Part shown: positions 1 through 10,015 of the stretch, piece after piece
Layout: every line of letters starts with the position of its first letter
Position numbering within the stretch: the first letter of the stretch is position 1
Source: a virus
Virus record (IMG/VR): IMGVR_UViG_3300020156_000082
Location: 1 to 21,861 of that record
Length of the DNA: 21,861 nucleotides
Direction: 5' to 3' (one strand)
Translations under genes and position numbers: made by a program
Notes under the pieces: generated by a model
The model's input: the letters and a program-made list of their open reading frames with translations, nothing else
Told to the model about the DNA's origin: nothing
Databases searched by the model: none

Positions 1-62
1 CAGATCGCCTTCGCAACCCGCTCCACAATGGGAATGGTGGAGCGGGTTGCGAAGGCGATCTG
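1..62. repeat. Perfect 26-bp inverted repeat at the window's left edge
   Basis: Bases 1-26 (beginning CAGATCGCCT) are the exact reverse complement of bases 37-62 (ending AGGCGATCTG), separated by a 10-base loop (27-36). The right arm is coding sequence of the first gene. The left arm sits where that gene's ribosome binding site should be and contains no purine-rich motif. Because the repeat starts at base 1, its real length cannot be seen. It could be a fold-back assembly or amplification artefact at a contig end, or a genuine hairpin. Confidence 0.95.
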
Positions 63-333
63 GCAGGAGCGGGAGCGCCGGCTTGGGCCTCGCGGGCAGC
101 GCATGGAGCCCGACGCAATGGACATGGTTACGGGCGCTTGGGCGAGCACGCTGGCGGACGCCCGAGTGGCGATAGGCGCAATGGCGGAACCGACGAAGCC
201 GATGGAATTCGCGGGCGGGACCAAGCTGGAGGAGATGCTGTTCAACGGCGACCGCGATTATTCGGGCGTCATCTTCAAGGACGTGGGCGTGGTCTATCGC
301 ACCATGCTCCGTGCCGCCCTTCAAGAGGAGTGA
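28..333 (+). CDS. Small phage protein of unknown function (possibly 5'-truncated)
   Basis: This encodes a 101-residue protein. The N-terminus MVERVAKAIW, followed near residues 40-52 by an ADARVAIGAM segment, resembles a small helical protein type common in alphaproteobacterial phages; I know no function for it. The frame is open to the left edge, so the gene could start upstream. ATG 28 is used here, and ATG 34 (starting MVERVAKAIW) is an equally good start. Neither has a visible ribosome site, because the upstream bases are one arm of the inverted repeat at 1-62. The gene ends 3 bases before the next start codon, suggesting co-transcription with 337-459. A shorter protein with a similar VAKAI...AIRAM pattern is encoded at 1645-1788 on the other strand. 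Confidence 0.65.
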   Translation: MGMVERVAKAIWQERERRLGPRGQRMEPDAMDMVTGAWASTLADARVAIGAMAEPTKPMEFAGGTKLEEMLFNGDRDYSGVIFKDVGVVYRTMLRAALQEE

Positions 334-336
334 GAG

Positions 337-459
337 ATGGACGCTTACGTCAGATATCGTGGGAGAGTGGTCGCTGAGGGCTGGTGCGCGGCGCTGATCA
401 TCCTTGGCGCTATCGGGGTGATCTGGGGCGTCGGCTTTCTGGTCGGCCTCGCATTCTAA
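337..459 (+). CDS. 40-residue single-span membrane protein
   Basis: The ATG at 337 is preceded by an AAGAGGAG ribosome site that overlaps the end of the upstream gene. The product has a short charged N-terminus (MDAYVRYRGR) followed from about residue 16 to 40 by an uninterrupted hydrophobic, Gly/Leu/Ile/Trp-rich helix that runs to the C-terminus. It is therefore predicted to be an inner-membrane peptide with one transmembrane segment. The good ribosome site and tight spacing to both neighbours support it as a real gene despite its size. Function is unknown. A small holin-like or superinfection-type role is conceivable, but nothing in the sequence proves it. Confidence 0.5.
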   Translation: MDAYVRYRGRVVAEGWCAALIILGAIGVIWGVGFLVGLAF

Positions 460-484
460 CTCCTCACAACCACAGGGGCATATT

Positions 485-1069
485 GTGGCAAGAGCAATAC
501 AGGGGCGGCTTGTTCCCGACCCGATGATAACGGACGCGGAATACCTCTACCGCAAGCGCCAGGAGGCCGAGCGGGCAGAGAAAACGGGCAGGCTTCCCAA
601 CCTCGACGTGGGCAAGGTCTGGGTCGAGGAGAACGGTCTGAGCCGCATCGGGGCCTTGACCTATATCCGCCGCCGGCAACCGCACCATGAGCGCGCGGCC
701 GAGCGGTTCAAGAACGAATACGAACGGCTCTACGGCGCCGGCAACCCGGCTATGGACCCGTCCCGTATCCAGGTGGACACCTCGCCCATCGCCCATGACA
801 GCGGCATGGCCGCGAGGGTGGACCGGGGCAGGAGCATCCTGGAAGTGATCTACGGCATACCCGCCACCGCCGAGCGGGCGGGGGTGCCGGCTGTCCTTTC
901 CCCCAGGTCGGCACAGCGCGTCATTGCCAGCATTGTGCTCGAAGAACCGTGCCAAAGTATGGCGGTGAGCGACAGCCGCAAGGATCGCGATGAGGCTGTG
1001 GAGCTACTGCTGGCCGACCTTGATACGCTGGCGGTGTTCTGGGGTTATCTCGCGCGCGTTGCCGCTTGA
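485..1069 (+). CDS. Putative phage regulatory protein, DUF6456-like
   Basis: The start is a GTG at 485 with an AGGGG ribosome site at about 475-479. The product is 194 residues, mostly helical and charged. The middle part (RRRQPHHERAAERFKNEYER, then SRIQVDT) and a C-terminal helix ending LLADLDTLAVFWG resemble the alphaproteobacterial DUF6456-type arrangement, in which a helical DNA-binding-like core is followed by an LxxxLDxLAxxxG ending. The match is by eye and tentative. The position, just ahead of a terminator and the packaging genes, is where a late regulator or antiterminator would be expected, and three intrinsic terminators lie downstream in the same direction. That role is inference only; it could equally be an early hypothetical protein. 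Confidence 0.6.
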   Translation: MARAIQGRLVPDPMITDAEYLYRKRQEAERAEKTGRLPNLDVGKVWVEENGLSRIGALTYIRRRQPHHERAAERFKNEYERLYGAGNPAMDPSRIQVDTSPIAHDSGMAARVDRGRSILEVIYGIPATAERAGVPAVLSPRSAQRVIASIVLEEPCQSMAVSDSRKDRDEAVELLLADLDTLAVFWGYLARVAA

Positions 1070-1141
1070 CAGCTTGCAGCCGATCTGAGACAAAGGGCTA
1101 CGGGGCGTTCTGCGCCCTAAAGTGATTCGCACTACATCCAG

Positions 1142-1170
1142 CCCGCCCGAGCAATCGCGGCGGGTTTTTT
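1142..1170 (+). terminator. Intrinsic terminator upstream of the 1196 gene
   Basis: A GC-rich stem (CCCGCCCGA against TCG-C-GGCGGG, one bulged base) closed by a GCAA tetraloop is followed directly by six T residues at 1165-1170. This is a strong rho-independent terminator for rightward transcription. A second, smaller hairpin (GGGCG/CGCCC, 1103-1117) lies upstream without a T run, so the 126-base gap 1070-1195 is a structured leader. The T run ends 25 bases before the ATG of the next gene. Confidence 0.85.
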
Positions 1171-1195
1171 GCGTTCCCCGATCGGGAGCCCCGTC

Positions 1196-1402
1196 ATGTT
1201 CAAAGACGCCCCTTCCGACGCCTATATAGACAAGCTGATCGAACGCATCACCAGGGACAACCTCCACGTCGAAACGGACGCCGGCTCAGCCCTTGGGCGC
1301 GAGGTGTTGGACGACCTGGAACTCGAACGCCAGCTCATCGTGCTGCTCGGTGAATCCAACGCCTACCGCCTTCTGCATCCATCCGCGAGGGGCGAGGCTT
1401 GA
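1196..1402 (+). CDS. Small hypothetical phage protein (68 aa)
   Basis: The ATG at 1196 follows a GGGAG ribosome site about 9 bases upstream. In-frame codons further upstream lie in the terminator T tract and are not credible starts. The 68-residue product (MFKDAPSDAYIDKLIERITR...) is acidic and helical, with no membrane segment or recognisable motif. It is the only gene between the terminator at 1142-1170 and the convergent leftward operon ending at 1457, so its transcription depends on read-through of that terminator. I do not recognise the family. Confidence 0.6.
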   Translation: MFKDAPSDAYIDKLIERITRDNLHVETDAGSALGREVLDDLELERQLIVLLGESNAYRLLHPSARGEA

Positions 1403-1456
1403 GCACCTACATCGACAGAAGCCCAACCCCATTGGGTTCGCGGCAAGACTGCCGGG

Positions 1457-1648
1457 TCAGGCCCACGGCTCCATCCGGTGATAGAGCGCCCGACAGGCGA
1501 GGGCGACGGCTCGATCCGTGCCAGCTGATTTCATCCTGACGATGGTATCGGCTGATTTACCCAGCAGCCTGCCGCACTCGGCATCGGATCGAGCAAGGCC
1601 CGCCGCTTTCATTGCGGCGAGCCAGTTGATGAAGGCGGCGGCGGTCAT
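1457..1648 (-). CDS. Small helix-turn-helix-like regulator
   Basis: This is the last gene of a three-gene leftward operon. The ATG at 1648 overlaps the stop of the upstream gene (ATGA), so translation is probably coupled. A longer in-frame version starting at 1711 is rejected because it would overlap the neighbour deeply and lacks a ribosome site. The 63-residue product opens with MTAAAFINWLAAMKAAGLAR and continues SDAECGRLLGKSADTIVRMK. This is a compact helix-turn-helix pattern (about residues 18-40) seen in small XRE-like or MerR-size phage DNA-binding proteins, where a small-residue helix precedes a recognition helix with Ser-Ala-Asp-Thr-Ile. It is the best candidate in the window for binding the repeated sites at 1984-2030, though nothing seen proves binding. 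Confidence 0.65.
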   Translation of the reverse strand: MTAAAFINWLAAMKAAGLARSDAECGRLLGKSADTIVRMKSAGTDRAVALACRALYHRMEPWA

Positions 1649-1788
1649 TGGTTTTCTGCTCTGCGCATGGCGCGGATCGCGGCGTCGGCCGCTGGCTTCC
1701 ACTTCTGCCATCCGTAGAGGTTGCCCAGCACCGCTTTACAGATGGCTTTGGCAACCTCATCGACGATGGCCTTCTCCCCCGCGCTCAT
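1645..1788 (-). CDS. Small phage protein (47 aa), middle gene of leftward operon
   Basis: The ATG at 1788 overlaps the stop of the upstream gene by ATGA, and its own stop overlaps the downstream ATG in the same way. This gives a coupled trio of tiny genes. The product (MSAGEKAIVDEVAKAICKAV..., with DAAIRAMRRAENQ at the C-terminus) is helical. It shares the VAKAI...AxxAIxAM pattern with the protein at 28-333, so the two may belong to one small phage protein type. A longer in-frame reading back to 2004 is rejected, since it runs through the promoter region and the upstream gene in another frame. Function is unknown. Confidence 0.55.
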   Translation of the reverse strand: MSAGEKAIVDEVAKAICKAVLGNLYGWQKWKPAADAAIRAMRRAENQ

Positions 1789-1955
1789 GGGTGGAATGTC
1801 AGCGCCTGTGCGCCATCGATCCAGGTTGCATAGGGGGCGGCGGTGATCTTTCTGACCAGGTAACGGTCCTCGCCATGGGTCCCCCTGCTGGCGGGGCGAA
1901 TGATGACGACCTCGATCTCGGCCCCAGTCTCGCGGTTGGTGTAGGTGGCGGTCAT
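1785..1955 (-). CDS. Small hypothetical protein (56 aa), first gene of leftward operon
   Basis: The ATG at 1955 is chosen because an AGGGAG ribosome site lies about 8 bases upstream; the ATG at 1961 is too close to that site. The 56-residue product (MTATYTNRETGAEIEVVIIR..., ending TWIDGAQALTFHP) looks like a small beta-rich domain with alternating hydrophobic residues. No family is recognised. Upstream at 1981-2008 there is a good leftward promoter (TTGCAT, 16 bases, TATATT), leaving an untranslated leader of roughly 20 bases. Expression is probably controlled by whatever binds the repeats over that promoter. Confidence 0.6.
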   Translation of the reverse strand: MTATYTNRETGAEIEVVIIRPASRGTHGEDRYLVRKITAAPYATWIDGAQALTFHP

Positions 1956-1980
1956 TTCCATCTCCCTTGTTGATGGTCCT

Positions 1981-2008
1981 AATATACGCACTTTGCGGAC
2001 GCATGCAA
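1981..2008 (-). promoter_or_regulatory. Leftward promoter for the three-gene operon
   Basis: On the minus strand, TTGCAT (2008-2003) and TATATT (1986-1981) are separated by 16 bases. This is close to the bacterial housekeeping consensus and lies directly upstream of the ribosome site of the gene at 1785-1955. No equally good rightward promoter was found; a TAAAAT at 2032-2037 could be a -10 element for the packaging genes but has no convincing -35. Confidence 0.55.
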
Positions 2009-2030
2009 GCACTAAATACGCAAATCGCGG
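1984..2030. promoter_or_regulatory. Paired operator-like repeats over the divergent promoter region
   Basis: Two 15-base direct repeats, ATACGCACTTTGCGG (1984-1998) and ATACGCAAATCGCGG (2016-2030), match at 11 of 15 positions and are spaced 32 bases apart, about three helical turns. Each is a partial inverted repeat (CGCA/TGCG with a 3-base gap in the first; CGC/GCG in the second), as expected for a dimeric repressor. The left copy overlaps the -10 box of the leftward promoter. The regulator is unknown; the helix-turn-helix-like protein at 1457-1648 is a candidate. Confidence 0.4.
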
Positions 2031-2127
2031 GTAAAATGCACTAGGGGCAGAGTATCCGCACAATTCCGATTTTCCACCAACCAAGCCGATCTGCCTCATG
2101 GCCCCGGCGGAGTGGAGCAATAGACCA

Positions 2128-2376
2128 ATGGCACGCGGCAGAACGCCCGGTTTCGTCATGTCGCACGAACACCGGAGTAAAATCCAAAACAGCCAAATCC
2201 TCAACGCGTTGATCGAACACGCGGAGGGCAGGCGGGACATGAGCGCGTCCCAGGTGTCGGCGGGGCTCGGGCTGCTGAAGAAAGTGATGCCAGACCTATC
2301 GCAGATGCAGATGGACGCCAGCGTGACAACCTCTCACGAGGAAGCTCTCGATGAGCTTGACGGAGAGGGAACGTAG
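2128..2376 (+). CDS. terS: Terminase small subunit-like protein
   Basis: This 82-residue protein has a basic N-terminus (MARGRTPGF) and a helical core. The pattern SKIQNSQILNALIEHAEGRR, then MSASQVSAGLGLLKKVMPDL, is typical of short phage terminase small subunits: two helices, a MSxxQxxAxxxLLxKxxPDL segment and an acidic tail. The small subunit recognises the viral DNA and hands it to the large subunit. ATG 2128 is chosen because a GGAG lies upstream at somewhat long spacing; ATG 2158 and in-frame ATG 2098 are alternatives. The gene overlaps the large-subunit gene by 26 bases, the classic arrangement, which supports the assignment more than the sequence alone. Confidence 0.7.
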   Translation: MARGRTPGFVMSHEHRSKIQNSQILNALIEHAEGRRDMSASQVSAGLGLLKKVMPDLSQMQMDASVTTSHEEALDELDGEGT

Positions 2377-3922
2377 TATCCGGCGCAGGCTGCGAGACGA
2401 GTTCCCGCACTACGCCGCCAAGTGCCTCAAGATCAGGCCCAAGGACCCGAGGGGCGGCCCGCAGCCGTTCATTCTCAACAAGGCTCAGGTATACCTGCAC
2501 GGACGCTTTGAAGACCAGCGTGCGCGCACCGGCAAGGTCAGGGCTCTCGTCCTCAAGGGACGCCAGCAGGGTATCTCGACCTATATCGGCGGGCGGTTCT
2601 ACTGGCGCACGTCGCACAGCCGCGGCGTTCGCTGCTTCATCCTCACACACGAGCAGGATGCAACCGACAACCTGTTCGGCATGGTGGACCGCTACCATGA
2701 GCACTGCCCGCCACTGGTGAAGCCGAGTACGGGCGCCGCCAACGCCAAGGAGTTGTATTTTGACCGCCTCGAAAGCGGATATGCCGTTGGAACAGCGGGC
2801 ACAAAGGCTGTTGGCCGATCCCAGACTATTCAGCTTTTTCACGGCTCGGAGGTCGCTTTCTGGCCTAATGCCGCCACTCACTTTGCAGGAGTGGTGCAAG
2901 CTATACCTGATATGCCGGGCACGGAGATCGTTCTGGAGAGTACGGCCAACGGCGTCGGCGGCGAGTTTCACGAGCGCTGGCAACAGGCCGAAGCTGGGAT
3001 AGGCGATTACGAGGCCATTTTCATCCCCTGGTACTGGTCGCCGGAATACTCACGGCCGGCCCCCGATGGCTTTGTCCTCGATGAGGAAGAGGCTGAGTAC
3101 CAGACGGCCTACGGGCTGACGCTCGATCAGATGGCATGGCGCCGCAACAAGATTGCCGAACTGAAGGACCCGCTGTTGTTCAAGCAGGAATATCCGGCGA
3201 CGGCAGCAGAGGCGTTCCAGAGCACCGGCCACGACAGCTTCATCAAGCCCGCCGCCGTGGTCAAGGCGCGCAAGGCCAGCCTTGATGGGGTGGGGCCACT
3301 CATCCTCGGTGCTGATCCGGCGCGATTCGGAAATGACAGGTTTTCGCTGGCCCGCCGCAAGGGCCGCAAGGTTCTGGGCGTCGAATCCAGGCAGAAGCTC
3401 GATGTGGTGGCTGGCGCAAACTGGCTGCGCAACGTGACGGACACGGAGCGCCCCGCGCGCGGCTTCATCGACGTTGGTGGCGTCGGCGCGGGTGTGTTCG
3501 ACCTGCTGAACTCGTGGGGCTACGCGTTCGACCCCGCCGACCCGGACAACCCGAAAAAGGTATGGGTGCCAATCGACTTCAGCGGCTCGCCACAGCAGCC
3601 CGAGATCGTGCTGCCCTCGGGAGAGAAGCGGCCGGGGCCATACAACCGCAGAGCCGAAATCTGGATGCGCTCGCGCGACTGGCTGGATGAGCCCGGCGGC
3701 GCCGACATCCCGGATGAAGACAGCCTGCAAGCCGATGCCTGCGGTCCTGGCTACCACTACAACGCCAACAGCTACCTGCTGATCGAGAGCAAGGAACACA
3801 TGCGGGATATTCGCAAGGTTCGCTCCCCCGATGAGTGGGACGCGGTGGCGCTGACATTTGCCGAGCCGGTCGGCGAGTCGTTCCGCCTACCCAAGCCACC
3901 CAAACCAAAGTGGGTCGTGTGA
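2351..3922 (+). CDS. terL: Terminase large subunit (DNA-packaging ATPase/nuclease)
   Basis: This 523-residue protein pumps DNA through the portal into the procapsid and cuts it. The N-terminal ATPase has a variant Walker A (LKGRQQGIST, residues 68-77), a Walker B-like strand with catalytic Glu167 (QLFHGSEVAFW) and the coupling motif ESTANG (196-201). The C-terminal RNase H-like nuclease has its acidic metal ligands at Asp322 (GADPARFG), Asp374 (GFIDVGG) and Asp497 (SPDEWDAVALT). All expected motifs are present and in order, and the length is normal. The ATG at 2351 has a GAGGAA ribosome site. The start lies inside the small-subunit gene, and the portal gene begins 7 bases after the stop. Confidence 0.95.
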   Translation: MSLTERERSIRRRLRDEFPHYAAKCLKIRPKDPRGGPQPFILNKAQVYLHGRFEDQRARTGKVRALVLKGRQQGISTYIGGRFYWRTSHSRGVRCFILTHEQDATDNLFGMVDRYHEHCPPLVKPSTGAANAKELYFDRLESGYAVGTAGTKAVGRSQTIQLFHGSEVAFWPNAATHFAGVVQAIPDMPGTEIVLESTANGVGGEFHERWQQAEAGIGDYEAIFIPWYWSPEYSRPAPDGFVLDEEEAEYQTAYGLTLDQMAWRRNKIAELKDPLLFKQEYPATAAEAFQSTGHDSFIKPAAVVKARKASLDGVGPLILGADPARFGNDRFSLARRKGRKVLGVESRQKLDVVAGANWLRNVTDTERPARGFIDVGGVGAGVFDLLNSWGYAFDPADPDNPKKVWVPIDFSGSPQQPEIVLPSGEKRPGPYNRRAEIWMRSRDWLDEPGGADIPDEDSLQADACGPGYHYNANSYLLIESKEHMRDIRKVRSPDEWDAVALTFAEPVGESFRLPKPPKPKWVV

Positions 3923-3929
3923 GAACCTG

Positions 3930-6299
3930 ATGGCATCCCTGACCGACACACAGCTCAGCGCCATCATCTCGGCGCAGCTCAGGCTTGCCCGCGATCACGA
4001 CCGGGCCGAACTGGCCGGCACCCGCAGCAAGGCCATCGACTACTATTTCGGGCGCATGGACGCTTATGTGCCGCCCGAGCCCAATCGCTCCAAGGTGGTG
4101 AGCCGCGATGTGGCCGACACCATCGGCTGGATGATGCCGCAACTGGTGCGGGTGTTCACCTCGTCCGACAGGTTCGTGGAAGCCGAGCCGGTCGAGGAGG
4201 GGGACATCGAGTTCGCCGGGCAGGCGACGGACGGCATGAACCATGTCTTCTGGAAGGACAATCCCGGCGAGGAAGTCTGCTACGACGCCACGCATGATGC
4301 GCTCCTGTTCGGCGACGGGGTGGTGAAGACGTATTGGGACGATACCCCGCAATATGCGGTGTCGTTCCATTCGGGGCTGACTGAAGACCAGCGGGCCATG
4401 CTGCTGCTGCCCAACGAGAACGGCGAGGAGCCGGAGGTGCTGGCCGCCGAGGAGCGCACCGAACTGGTTGACGATGGCATGGGCAACCAGATGCCCGTGC
4501 TGGTCTACGACTGCAAGATCCGGCGCATGAAGGCGCGCGGGCGCTTCGTCATCGAGGCCATTCCGCCCGAGGACTACCTCAAGGACAGGGACGCCACATC
4601 GACCGAAGACGCGGTGATGCAGGCGCACCGCAGCGAGAAGACCCGCTCGCAACTGATCGAGATGGGCTTCGACCGCGACCTGGTACGGTCCATCAATGCG
4701 GCATCCGATTGGGACGAGCGCGAGGAAATGGCGCGCGACCCGCGATCCCGCGAGGATGCGCCCGACGACAGCACGGAACTGGTGGACCTCTATGAGGTCT
4801 ACATCAAGGTGGACGTTGACGGCGACGGCATGGCGGAATGCGTCAGGGCTTACTATGCCGGCGGCGAGAGCGGAACGCTGCTCGATTGGGAGGTGTGGGA
4901 GGACGAGACCCCGTTCGACACCATCCCCTATGAGCCGGTCCCGCACCGCTTCGAGAGCCGTTCGGTGTTCGACAAGACCGCCGATGTGCAGGACATCAAG
5001 ACGGTGCTGCACCGGCAGGTGCTCAACAACATCTATGCGGTGAACAACCCGCAGCGGGCGGTGATCGGCAAGGTCAAGAATCCCGAGGAGCTGCTGGCGC
5101 CGAGCTTCAACGGCACGGTGTTCGCCGATGCCGGGACGGAGATCGTACCGCTGCCGGTGCCGTTCGTCGCCAACCATGCCTTCGAGGGACTGGCCTATCA
5201 GGACGAGGTGACGCAGCGGCGCACGGGCGTCGGCCGGCAGTCGATGGCACTCGACCCCGAGGCATTGCAGAACCAGTCGGCGACGGCCAACCAGAACCAG
5301 AAGGATGCGGCTTACTCGCAGGTGGAGCTGGCGGCGCGCAACATGGCGCGGGGCTGGAAGAAGGTGTTCCGCAAGCTGATGCGGCTGATGATCAAGCATC
5401 AGACGACGCCGCGCACCATCCGGCTCAGGGGCGAGGAGTTCACGACCATCGATCCGCGTCACTGGAACGCGGATATGGACGTGACCATCAATGTCGGGCT
5501 CGGCACCGGCTCGCGCGACCGCGACATGGTGATGCTGCAACAGGTGCTCGCCAACCAGGTCATGCTGGCGGACAGGTTCATGGCCTCGGGCGCGACCGAG
5601 CAGGCAATCGAGCTGTTGCCCAAGATCATCCGCACCATGCAGAAGATCGCGGAATCGGCGGGCTTGCGCAACGCCGACGAATACTATCCCGACGATGTGG
5701 AGGAACTGGTCGAGCGGCTGAAGCAGGTGGCGGCGCAGGCGGCCGAGCAGCCCAACCCGGAAGTCATGAAGGAACAGGCCAAGGCGCAGGCGCAGATACA
5801 GATCGAGCAGGCGCGGATTCAGGCCGAGGGGCAACTGGAGCAGTTGCGCTTGCAGGCCGGGGCGCAGGCTGAGCGCATGAAGGCCGAGGGCAATGCGGTC
5901 AAGGAGCGGGCGCAGCTCGAGGCCGACCTTCAGACGAAGGAAGCCGACCGGCAGAATGCGCTGATGATCGAGCAGCAGCGGCAGGCATTCGAGCGGGACA
6001 AGTTCATGGCCGAGCTTCAGTTCAAGATGTGGGAAGCGCAGCAGAAGTTCGCGCTGGAGCGGGACAAGCTCAACACTGTGGACGTGGAAGAAGAGCAGGA
6101 AGGCCCACCCGGTCCTGACGGCAAGCCGAAGAAAACCAAGTCCAAGGTGCGCGTGGTCGATAACAGCGCCGCTGTCATGCAGGGCATCGGCAAGCTTGGC
6201 GAGGCGATTGCGCAGATGAGCGCCAGCCTGACGGCGCCGACCGAGATCGTGCGCGACCAGAACGGCCGGGCAGTGGGCACCCGCAAGGTAGTGAACTAG
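3930..6299 (+). CDS. Portal protein, P22 type
   Basis: This 789-residue protein is expected to form the dodecameric portal ring at the capsid vertex. The N-terminal region (AIDYYFGRMDAY, SRDVADTIGWMMPQLVRVF) and the central FDTIPYEPVPHRF and DIKTVLHRQVLNNIYAVNNP segments are typical of the large P22-like portals. The C-terminus, about residues 610-712, is a long Gln/Glu/Ala-rich coiled coil (EQAKAQAQIQIEQARIQAEG), matching the extended barrel of P22-type portals. ATG 3930 is chosen because it lies 7 bases after the terminase stop and the conserved portal N-terminus begins there. An upstream in-frame ATG at 3858 would overlap terL by 65 bases with a Ser/Pro-rich non-portal extension. Confidence 0.92.
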   Translation: MASLTDTQLSAIISAQLRLARDHDRAELAGTRSKAIDYYFGRMDAYVPPEPNRSKVVSRDVADTIGWMMPQLVRVFTSSDRFVEAEPVEEGDIEFAGQATDGMNHVFWKDNPGEEVCYDATHDALLFGDGVVKTYWDDTPQYAVSFHSGLTEDQRAMLLLPNENGEEPEVLAAEERTELVDDGMGNQMPVLVYDCKIRRMKARGRFVIEAIPPEDYLKDRDATSTEDAVMQAHRSEKTRSQLIEMGFDRDLVRSINAASDWDEREEMARDPRSREDAPDDSTELVDLYEVYIKVDVDGDGMAECVRAYYAGGESGTLLDWEVWEDETPFDTIPYEPVPHRFESRSVFDKTADVQDIKTVLHRQVLNNIYAVNNPQRAVIGKVKNPEELLAPSFNGTVFADAGTEIVPLPVPFVANHAFEGLAYQDEVTQRRTGVGRQSMALDPEALQNQSATANQNQKDAAYSQVELAARNMARGWKKVFRKLMRLMIKHQTTPRTIRLRGEEFTTIDPRHWNADMDVTINVGLGTGSRDRDMVMLQQVLANQVMLADRFMASGATEQAIELLPKIIRTMQKIAESAGLRNADEYYPDDVEELVERLKQVAAQAAEQPNPEVMKEQAKAQAQIQIEQARIQAEGQLEQLRLQAGAQAERMKAEGNAVKERAQLEADLQTKEADRQNALMIEQQRQAFERDKFMAELQFKMWEAQQKFALERDKLNTVDVEEEQEGPPGPDGKPKKTKSKVRVVDNSAAVMQGIGKLGEAIAQMSASLTAPTEIVRDQNGRAVGTRKVVN

Positions 6300-8937: not shown

Positions 8938-8992
8938 AGGCCCGATCACAGCGACCAAGCCCCCCGGCAGTCGCGCAACCCAAGGCACATGA

Positions 8993-10015
8993 ATGACCAC
9001 CGAGAACGACGCCCTTGAGGGCGGCGAGGGCATCTCCATTGACGAAGCTGCCCAGCGCTTTGCCGCTGCCACGTCCAACGCAGTCCCCGAGGACCACGCG
9101 GAAGACGAGGACGCGGAACAAGGCGAGACCACCGAAGACGATGCCGAACTCTCCGACGACGATGTTGGAGCCGAGGACGTTGACGGCGATTCCGGCGAGG
9201 AAGACCAAGCCGAGGACGATCAAGAGGAACCCCAGACCGATCTAGGTCGCTTCGTGGCGGACAACGCCAAGGTGCGGCTCGATGACGGCTCCGTGGTCTC
9301 GATTGCCGACCTCAAGAAGGGCAGTCTGCTCCACGCCGATTATACGCGCAAGACCCAGGAAGTGGCGGAGCAGCGGCGCTCCGTCGAAGGCCAGTCCGAG
9401 CGCATCAAGGCAACCGAAACCGAGCTTCAGCAGCGCATGGAGTATGTCTCCGGCCTGCTGCAATCCGTTGTGCCGCCGCCTCCCGACCCGGCCATGCTCC
9501 AGTCGGACCCTCTGGGCTACATGTCCCAGAAGGCCCAGCACGAGCAGTGGGTCACGCATCTCAACTACATGCAGGCCGAACAGCAGCGCATCCTTGAGGA
9601 GCGCCAAGCCCAGACGGCCCAGCAGCAGAACGAGACCGCCCAGCGGGAATGGGAAGCGCTGATCGCGAAGGTTCCCGAGTTCCGGGACCAGAAGCGCGTC
9701 GATCGCTTCGTCACGGACCTCAAGGAGCAGGCCACCAGCCTCTACGGCTTCAAGCCGGAAGAGCTGCGGGCCGTCGCGCTCGATCACCGTCAGGCCCTCG
9801 TCCTCAAGGACGCGCTGGCATGGCGGAAGCTCCAGGCCAGCAAGCCCAAGGTGCCGCAGAAGGTGGAAGGACGCCCGCCCGTACAGAAGGGCGGCAAGCG
9901 ACTGACCCCGGATGCGCAGAAGGCTCGCGCCGAATCGGCTGCCAAGGACCGCCTCAAACGCAGCGGGCGTCTCGATGACGCCGTGGCTGCCTACCTCGCA
10001 ACACAGAAAGGATAG
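8993..10015 (+). CDS. Capsid scaffolding protein
   Basis: The 340-residue product has the usual scaffold layout. The N-terminal part is strongly acidic (about residues 34-82, mostly Glu/Asp). It is followed by a DGSVVSIADLKKG...HADYTRKTQEVAEQR motif (98-128) shared with many phage scaffold proteins, a Gln/Glu-rich coiled coil (130-220) and a basic C-terminal region (280-325, Lys/Arg-rich) that would contact the capsid protein. Scaffold directs procapsid assembly and leaves before or during packaging. It lies 6 bases before the major capsid gene, the classic order. ATG 8993 has an AAGG ribosome site. No protease motif is seen. Confidence 0.85.
   Translation: MTTENDALEGGEGISIDEAAQRFAAATSNAVPEDHAEDEDAEQGETTEDDAELSDDDVGAEDVDGDSGEEDQAEDDQEEPQTDLGRFVADNAKVRLDDGSVVSIADLKKGSLLHADYTRKTQEVAEQRRSVEGQSERIKATETELQQRMEYVSGLLQSVVPPPPDPAMLQSDPLGYMSQKAQHEQWVTHLNYMQAEQQRILEERQAQTAQQQNETAQREWEALIAKVPEFRDQKRVDRFVTDLKEQATSLYGFKPEELRAVALDHRQALVLKDALAWRKLQASKPKVPQKVEGRPPVQKGGKRLTPDAQKARAESAAKDRLKRSGRLDDAVAAYLATQKG

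Follow-up and report, generated by a model that had tools for sequence, protein, structure and literature searches.

A predicted Aca-like autorepressor with a phased operator array opposite phage terminase genes

Lambda-type CI/Cro operators are several similar intergenic sites that are bound by small helix-turn-helix (HTH) proteins. For Staphylococcus phage phi11, three operators are described in the accessible text of PMC3991615. In acr-aca operons, one inverted repeat always lies in the core promoter, and several families (Aca1, 2, 4, 5, 9 and 10) have a second repeat, according to the accessible sections of PMC9410906. Excerpts of the same paper and of the AcaFinder paper (PMC9765179) give a mean length of mostly 60-65 aa for Acr-associated Aca proteins, with 63 aa for Aca11, and mention many aca-like genes without a known acr.

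Here we analyse a divergent intergenic region in a virus record. The sequence studied, called the window below, is the whole 21,861-base virus record IMGVR_UViG_3300020156_000082. Its leftward operon consists of three genes and resembles the acr-aca operons (Aca1-10) of Shehreen et al. (2022), as far as the accessible text of that paper describes them: the HTH gene comes last in an operon of small phage genes, and an inverted repeat lies inside the core promoter. Unlike those operons, the loci described here have up to three sites at fixed offsets of 31/32 and 64 bp, lie recurrently opposite terminase genes, and show no anti-CRISPR family among the matches listed for 55 of their small proteins (NCBIfam, Pfam and PHROG, E ≤ 0.01). 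With the lambda CI/Cro and phi11 systems, the latter as given in the accessible text, the loci share several similar intergenic sites and small HTH proteins. They differ in having one repressor gene, a spacing of about 31-33 bp and, in most tested loci, a terminase gene instead of a repressor gene on the opposite side.

The leftward promoter of the window and its repeats

The features of the region are as follows.
1457-1648, minus strand: predicted 63-aa HTH repressor, last gene of the operon; AF2 pLDDT 93.2, helices 22-29 and 33-42
1645-1788, minus strand: operon gene 2, 47 aa, unknown; its start overlaps the stop of gene 1
1785-1955, minus strand: operon gene 1, 56 aa, unknown; ribosome site AAGGGAG, 6 bases ahead of the ATG
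1981-1986, minus strand: -10 box TATATT of the leftward promoter
1985-1999, minus strand: predicted operator O1, TCCGCA-aag-TGCGTA; in the -35/-10 spacer, overlapping the -10 box; equivalent position in 34 non-redundant loci
2003-2008, minus strand: leftward -35 box TTGCAT; spacer of 16 bp to the -10 box; position matches the TTGAC boxes of other loci
2017-2031, minus strand: predicted operator O2, CCCGCG-att-TGCGTA; 32 bp from O1; 10/12 symmetric match
2055-2069, minus strand: possible third operator O3, TCGGAA-ttg-TGCGGA; 10/12 match; 70 bp from O1
2128-2376, plus strand: terS, small terminase subunit by position and by-eye likeness to relatives; no named family
2351-3922, plus strand: terL (phrog_2, E 6e-27)

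An earlier note on this DNA had pointed out two ATACGCA....GCGG repeats with internal dyad symmetry. Both are present, as ATACGCACTTTGCGG (1984-1998) and ATACGCAAATCGCGG (2016-2030), 32 bp apart. The dyad is exact in the left copy (CGCA-n3-TGCG) and weaker in the right copy (CGC-n5-GCG). By homology to other loci, the 15-bp sites are set at 1985-1999 and 2017-2031. The third site is a tentative assignment, as its offset is 70 and not the usual 64-65. The note had also placed the left repeat over the -10 box of a good leftward promoter. The repeat does lie in the spacer and overlaps the -10 box, but the -35 box TTGCAT is poor compared to the E. coli consensus, and a strict promoter scan of positions 1-4000 found none. 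This -35 box sits where 31 of 34 non-redundant loci have TTGAC, and the same hexamer is found in loci L138 and L175. The start of terS is probably 2128 rather than 2098. Operon gene 1 has zero relatives in viral contigs and, read as 58 aa, matches none of NCBIfam, Pfam and PHROG at E 0.01; gene 2 has no Pfam match and one weak PHROG match (E 0.24).

A motif search over the rest of the genome, which had been proposed together with these claims, gave nothing further at up to one mismatch: in the entire 21.9-kb record, ATACGCA-n4-GCGG occurs at this stringency only at 1984 and 2016. At two mismatches 11 matches were observed against 9.4 expected, which is close to chance, so that the loose motif is uninformative. 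In dinucleotide shuffles of the 142-bp intergenic region, a 15-mer pair with at least 12/15 identity arose in 10 of 400 cases and the exact 7+4 split in 6 of 400. The repeat pair in the intergenic region alone is improbable by these shuffles and not compelling on its own.

Two further observations were made near the start of the record. Positions 1-25 and 38-62 form, by eye, a perfect inverted repeat of 25 bases, possibly an artefact of assembly. A match to the RcsR1 sRNA at 1092-1170 reaches 28.6 of 60 bits, far under the gathering score, and ends in a rightward terminator-like hairpin, CCCGCC..GGCGGGTTTTTT.

Phased sites and recognition-helix covariation in relatives of the HTH gene

Viral contigs were scanned with the 63-aa protein in one single-sequence and two alignment-based searches, yielding 15, 58 and 63 largely overlapping loci. 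We examined 57 loci (56 relatives and the window), comprising 40 distinct loci with a promoter, 7 duplicates and 10 without a promoter. The promoter score looked for TTG-, a spacer of 15-18 and a TATNTT-like box. Counts for the array, covariation, conservation, tree and rightward promoters are given without L125 and L176, whose promoters were judged doubtful, and non-redundant counts (34 loci) without rows whose protein is at least 90% identical. A relaxed scan recovered L134 and L142 among the loci lacking a called promoter; it gave no convincing promoter in L146, L150, L159, L164/L191, L167/L168 (L168 being a copy of L167), L172 and L178, and none comparable in the distant chromosome matches L182-L184.

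The 34 non-redundant loci in which a promoter could be called contain a 15-bp dyad in its spacer, overlapping or abutting the -10 box. Over 40 loci these O1-like dyads have a mean of 5.1 of 7 symmetric pairs, compared to 3.25-3.48 at shifted positions under the same best-of-8 search, and the left repeat of the window is exactly this site. Second and third sites were scored against the O1 of each locus, and offsets played no part in choosing the loci. At an offset of 30-35 bp, a second site with at least 9/12 letters is present in 26 of the 34 loci, and a third at 60-65 bp in 14, while the remaining six-base bins from 18 to 143 hold 0-3 loci each. The mean score peaks at offsets 31, 32 and 64 (z 5.8, 5.7 and 4.7; next best 2.4), which correspond to about three and six helical turns. 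In an alignment of the 29 loci whose best second site reaches 8/12, base conservation ends within O3 and no position beyond it exceeds 0.45 bits; many of these loci have an A-rich flank after O2.

The presence of the repeats in related phages had been put forward earlier as a test of the operator reading. It is borne out by the arrays around relatives of the HTH gene, but not by the literal motif: the pair is absent from the 1200 bases preceding terL in 94 loci, 74 of which include over 1500 bp before the gene, and only single one-mismatch matches occur there, in L039 and L078. The HTH gene is present in just one of these terL loci, L078 (same contig as L153), which carries its own version of the array. 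Thus terL is the wrong anchor and the HTH gene the right one, and the missing literal motif upstream of terL was dropped as a refutation. Chance similarity within an AT-richer promoter region would agree with this missing pair and with a two-mismatch motif that is no commoner than expected. The fixed offsets and the helix-operator covariation described below, over diverse loci, speak strongly against it, and we consider chance a most improbable explanation. The repeats go beyond chance because they are conserved around genes homologous to the HTH gene.

In 13 records (7.7-55 kb), all but two matches to the class consensus with at most one mismatch sit at the array. The two exceptions are G298:C1:28077-28091, about 2 kb away in the L151 record, and G308:C1:3419-3433, about 1.4 kb away in the L140 record. 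Two-mismatch matches off the array are about as frequent as those of a control pattern. The predicted regulon of the HTH protein looks local. In the phage collection, only the record of Microcystis phage Mae-JY35 has an HTH match (E ≤ 0.01); terL lies opposite, and the locus fits the array only under a relaxed promoter reading. The contig of L138 and L192 holds a second HTH paralogue, with Asn34, 561 bases downstream of the Asp34 one, and the relaxed scan finds a promoter for the first paralogue only.

The AF2 model of the HTH protein (47 sequences) has a pLDDT of 93.2 and helices at 22-29 and 33-42, which places residues 34-38 in the second HTH helix. By analogy with HTH proteins in general, we take this helix (33-42) to be the recognition helix. 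Half-sites fall into classes that include T[A/C]CAAG, TCCGCA and TCCGAA. In a partial Mantel test (n = 33, without L169, L125 and L176), operator distance correlated with distance at residues 31-41 after the rest of the protein had been removed (partial r 0.435, 0/5000 permutations); for the rest of the protein given the helix, 269 of 5000 permutations did as well. The best five-residue window for covariation was 34-38. Across 47 loci, Asp34 goes with a CG at positions 3-4 of the half-site: it is found in all 8 such loci and in none of the 39 others. Two of the eight, L197 and L199, came from a later scan and obey the rule, as do new Asn34 loci, in picks that were not blind: the operators of the nine added rows were chosen by a palindrome-weighted script when the pattern was already known.

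A tree was built without the recognition helix and without L196, which has an insertion. The best tree has 6 changes of the half-site label (4-7 in the bootstrap), and label and Asp34 agree in all rows. The tree is poorly resolved, with 4 of 44 inner branches starred; the starred branches alone give one independent pair for the Asp34 rule, with which a single origin remains compatible. The nearest tree neighbour of the window, L124, is 80% identical over 51 columns outside the helix, carries Asn34/Ser38 and has a TCACAG site, and thereby forms a natural minimal pair with the window.

Against Pfam and NCBIfam, the HTH family gave scattered weak matches only, and no model names it; a description in the open-licence literature was not found. 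The PHROG family phrog_4441 (HTH DNA binding protein) is matched by 20 of 47 relatives, with a best E of 2.5e-6, but not by the window protein at E 0.01, and the library row gives no operator. Fold matches in the PDB are all weak, starting from E 0.92, and include HipB, C.AhdI, P22 c2, 434 Cro, lambda cI, Aca1 and Aca10; viral fold matches start at E 0.045. In a PDB profile search at E ≤ 1, no Aca chain (7vjm, 7xi5 and, if in the set, Aca2 7B5J) was matched, only three DPBB_sym proteins. As a sequence comparison that covered PDB chains revealed no similarity to the Aca proteins among them, the family would be Aca-like in its action and not a member of the Aca families.

The divergent terminase genes and a hairpin in head-gene leaders

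The earlier note had further proposed that a small repressor could link the packaging genes to the leftward operon. To assess the gene on the other side of the array, 20 divergent genes were chosen from the 40 loci for a plausible ORF. A terminase was found in 17 of them (large subunit in 16, small subunit in 1; L125 counted among them), from varied terminase families; the remaining three are one head-morphogenesis gene and two genes without a terminase match. This neighbourhood bears on whether the HTH protein could be the Cro- or CI-like partner in a CI/Cro-type lysis-lysogeny switch. Its small XRE/HTH-like fold, the weak matches to P22 c2, 434 Cro and lambda cI, and a set of up to three phased operators like that of lambdoid switches would suit such a role. 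However, where the divergent gene is a terminase there is no second repressor that could share the operators, and matches were found in 4 of 297 genomes of Aquamicrobium's order, all with E 8e-10 or weaker, so that a common prophage role is not seen there. A switch of this kind is therefore improbable.

The position opposite terminase genes does recur, so a link to packaging may exist. In the window a rightward promoter was not found: the best score is 3.9, and 53% of 60 shuffles were as good. Of 34 loci, 4 (L130, L133, L144 and L147) have a rightward sigma70-like promoter within 170 bases of O1 whose score beats 60 shuffles at p ≤ 0.05; leftward promoter scores are 6.6-14.4 in all 34. A two-way switch, in which HTH protein bound at O2/O3 additionally controls a rightward terminase promoter, by repression or activation, would fit these four promoters, the varied terminase families opposite, the extension of the array from the leftward promoter toward terS and the A-rich flank after O2. 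Against it, the best rightward score in the other 30 loci is no better than shuffles at p ≤ 0.05, the distance of the rightward -10 box from O1 varies between 29 and 146 bases, and conservation fades beyond O3. We regard it as rather unlikely, though more plausible than a lysis-lysogeny switch.

As a separate observation, phage gene leaders of relatives carry a covarying RNA hairpin of the form P1-CAA-P2-A-P1' (L030, L015, L006, L027, L059, L063, L099 and others). In the window, the following features belong to it.
2073-2116, plus strand: possible hairpin P1-CAA-P2-A-P1' in the terS leader; first model 19.0 bits, E 0.029; rebuilt model none at E ≤ 1
8951-8974, plus strand: RNA hairpin before the scaffold gene; training member of both models; fold z -2.05
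8993-10015, plus strand: head scaffolding protein gene (phrog_3927, E 1.4e-50)

A strict scan gave 49 matches, compared to 11 in reversed sequence. In 30 distinct sequences, 88.8% of cells are paired and 60 double-sided changes were counted against 21.8 in shuffles, figures that are overstated since the set was partly chosen for pairing and aligned to the structure; slid versions of the alignment collapse. The alignment was made with the first model, and a MAFFT alignment was left out, its 3' arm being out of register. With the rebuilt model, 38 matches reached E < 0.05. They come from 24 of the 94 sources and always lie on the coding strand; 32 are members of the model itself, and of the remaining 6, 5 closely duplicate a member. 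Thirteen of the 94 sources, two of which (L031 and L060) are near copies, have one hairpin upstream of terL and another 3.5-4.5 kb downstream from the start of that gene. The terS-leader copy of the window is doubtful: its minimum-energy fold has the hairpin shape, with a z of only -0.63. Translational or RNA-binding control of head genes by the hairpin is a guess. A search of Rfam with positions 1000-3000 (E ≤ 1) gave no match for the terS leader of the window. In 12 relatives, nothing but a tRNA and an abiF RNA reached the gathering score, the latter at L016 5050-5085, about 0.9 kb upstream of terL. No description of the hairpin was found in the open-licence literature. Another recurrent terS leader was seen by eye in L003, L007, L008, L009 and L103, about 260-340 bases before terL, in which TTTGA and AATCAAAGGAAATCAAA-like stretches precede the ATG; it is possibly an A/T-rich version of the hairpin.

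Small genes of the operon and autorepression

In the relatives, the HTH gene is mostly preceded by one to three small genes. Clustering of 56 small ORFs (without L125, L176, L166, L140 and ORFs below 40 aa) gave 48 clusters with a median length of 74 aa. For 55 of the proteins, that is without the first ORF of L162, family searches matched 22 PHROG, 7 Pfam and 2 NCBIfam families, each with one or two members of the set. Nearly all of these families have no known function, the exceptions being anti-TRAP-like and ParB-like.

Taken together, the repeats are very probably operators of the 63-aa HTH protein, which we predict to be an Aca-like autorepressor with a phased operator array. Autoregulation by the protein of the last gene, already suggested from the sequence alone, is the best reading because like dyads lie in homologous promoters, an HTH fold is modelled and half-sites vary with residues 34 and 38. 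From this we infer the following course of events. Upon infection, the strong leftward promoter would start a burst of small genes and repressor. A repressor dimer on O1 would cover the -35/-10 spacer and thus block RNA polymerase. Further dimers could occupy O2, and O3 in many relatives, at intervals of about three helical turns along one face of the DNA, and would probably strengthen repression via cooperation or wrapping. The repressor would then close its own promoter, as Aca proteins do at anti-CRISPR operons.

It is possible, although we lean slightly against it, that anti-defence genes with rapid turnover gather in a hotspot back to back with the packaging operon, and that this Aca-like repressor family is its marker. 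In that reading residues 34 and 38 largely determine DNA specificity, which would make operators readable from the protein sequence. If it is true, dozens of unrelated small genes become candidate counter-defence genes. The results offer a rule for calling the operators of a phage repressor family without a Pfam or NCBIfam name, and the matched changes in protein and operator form a natural data set for HTH-DNA specificity. For 48 clusters of small phage proteins, they also provide a first handle on function through association with the repressor gene. Should the proteins act in counter-defence, the HTH gene would mark more of them, in phages that are mostly known from metagenomes.
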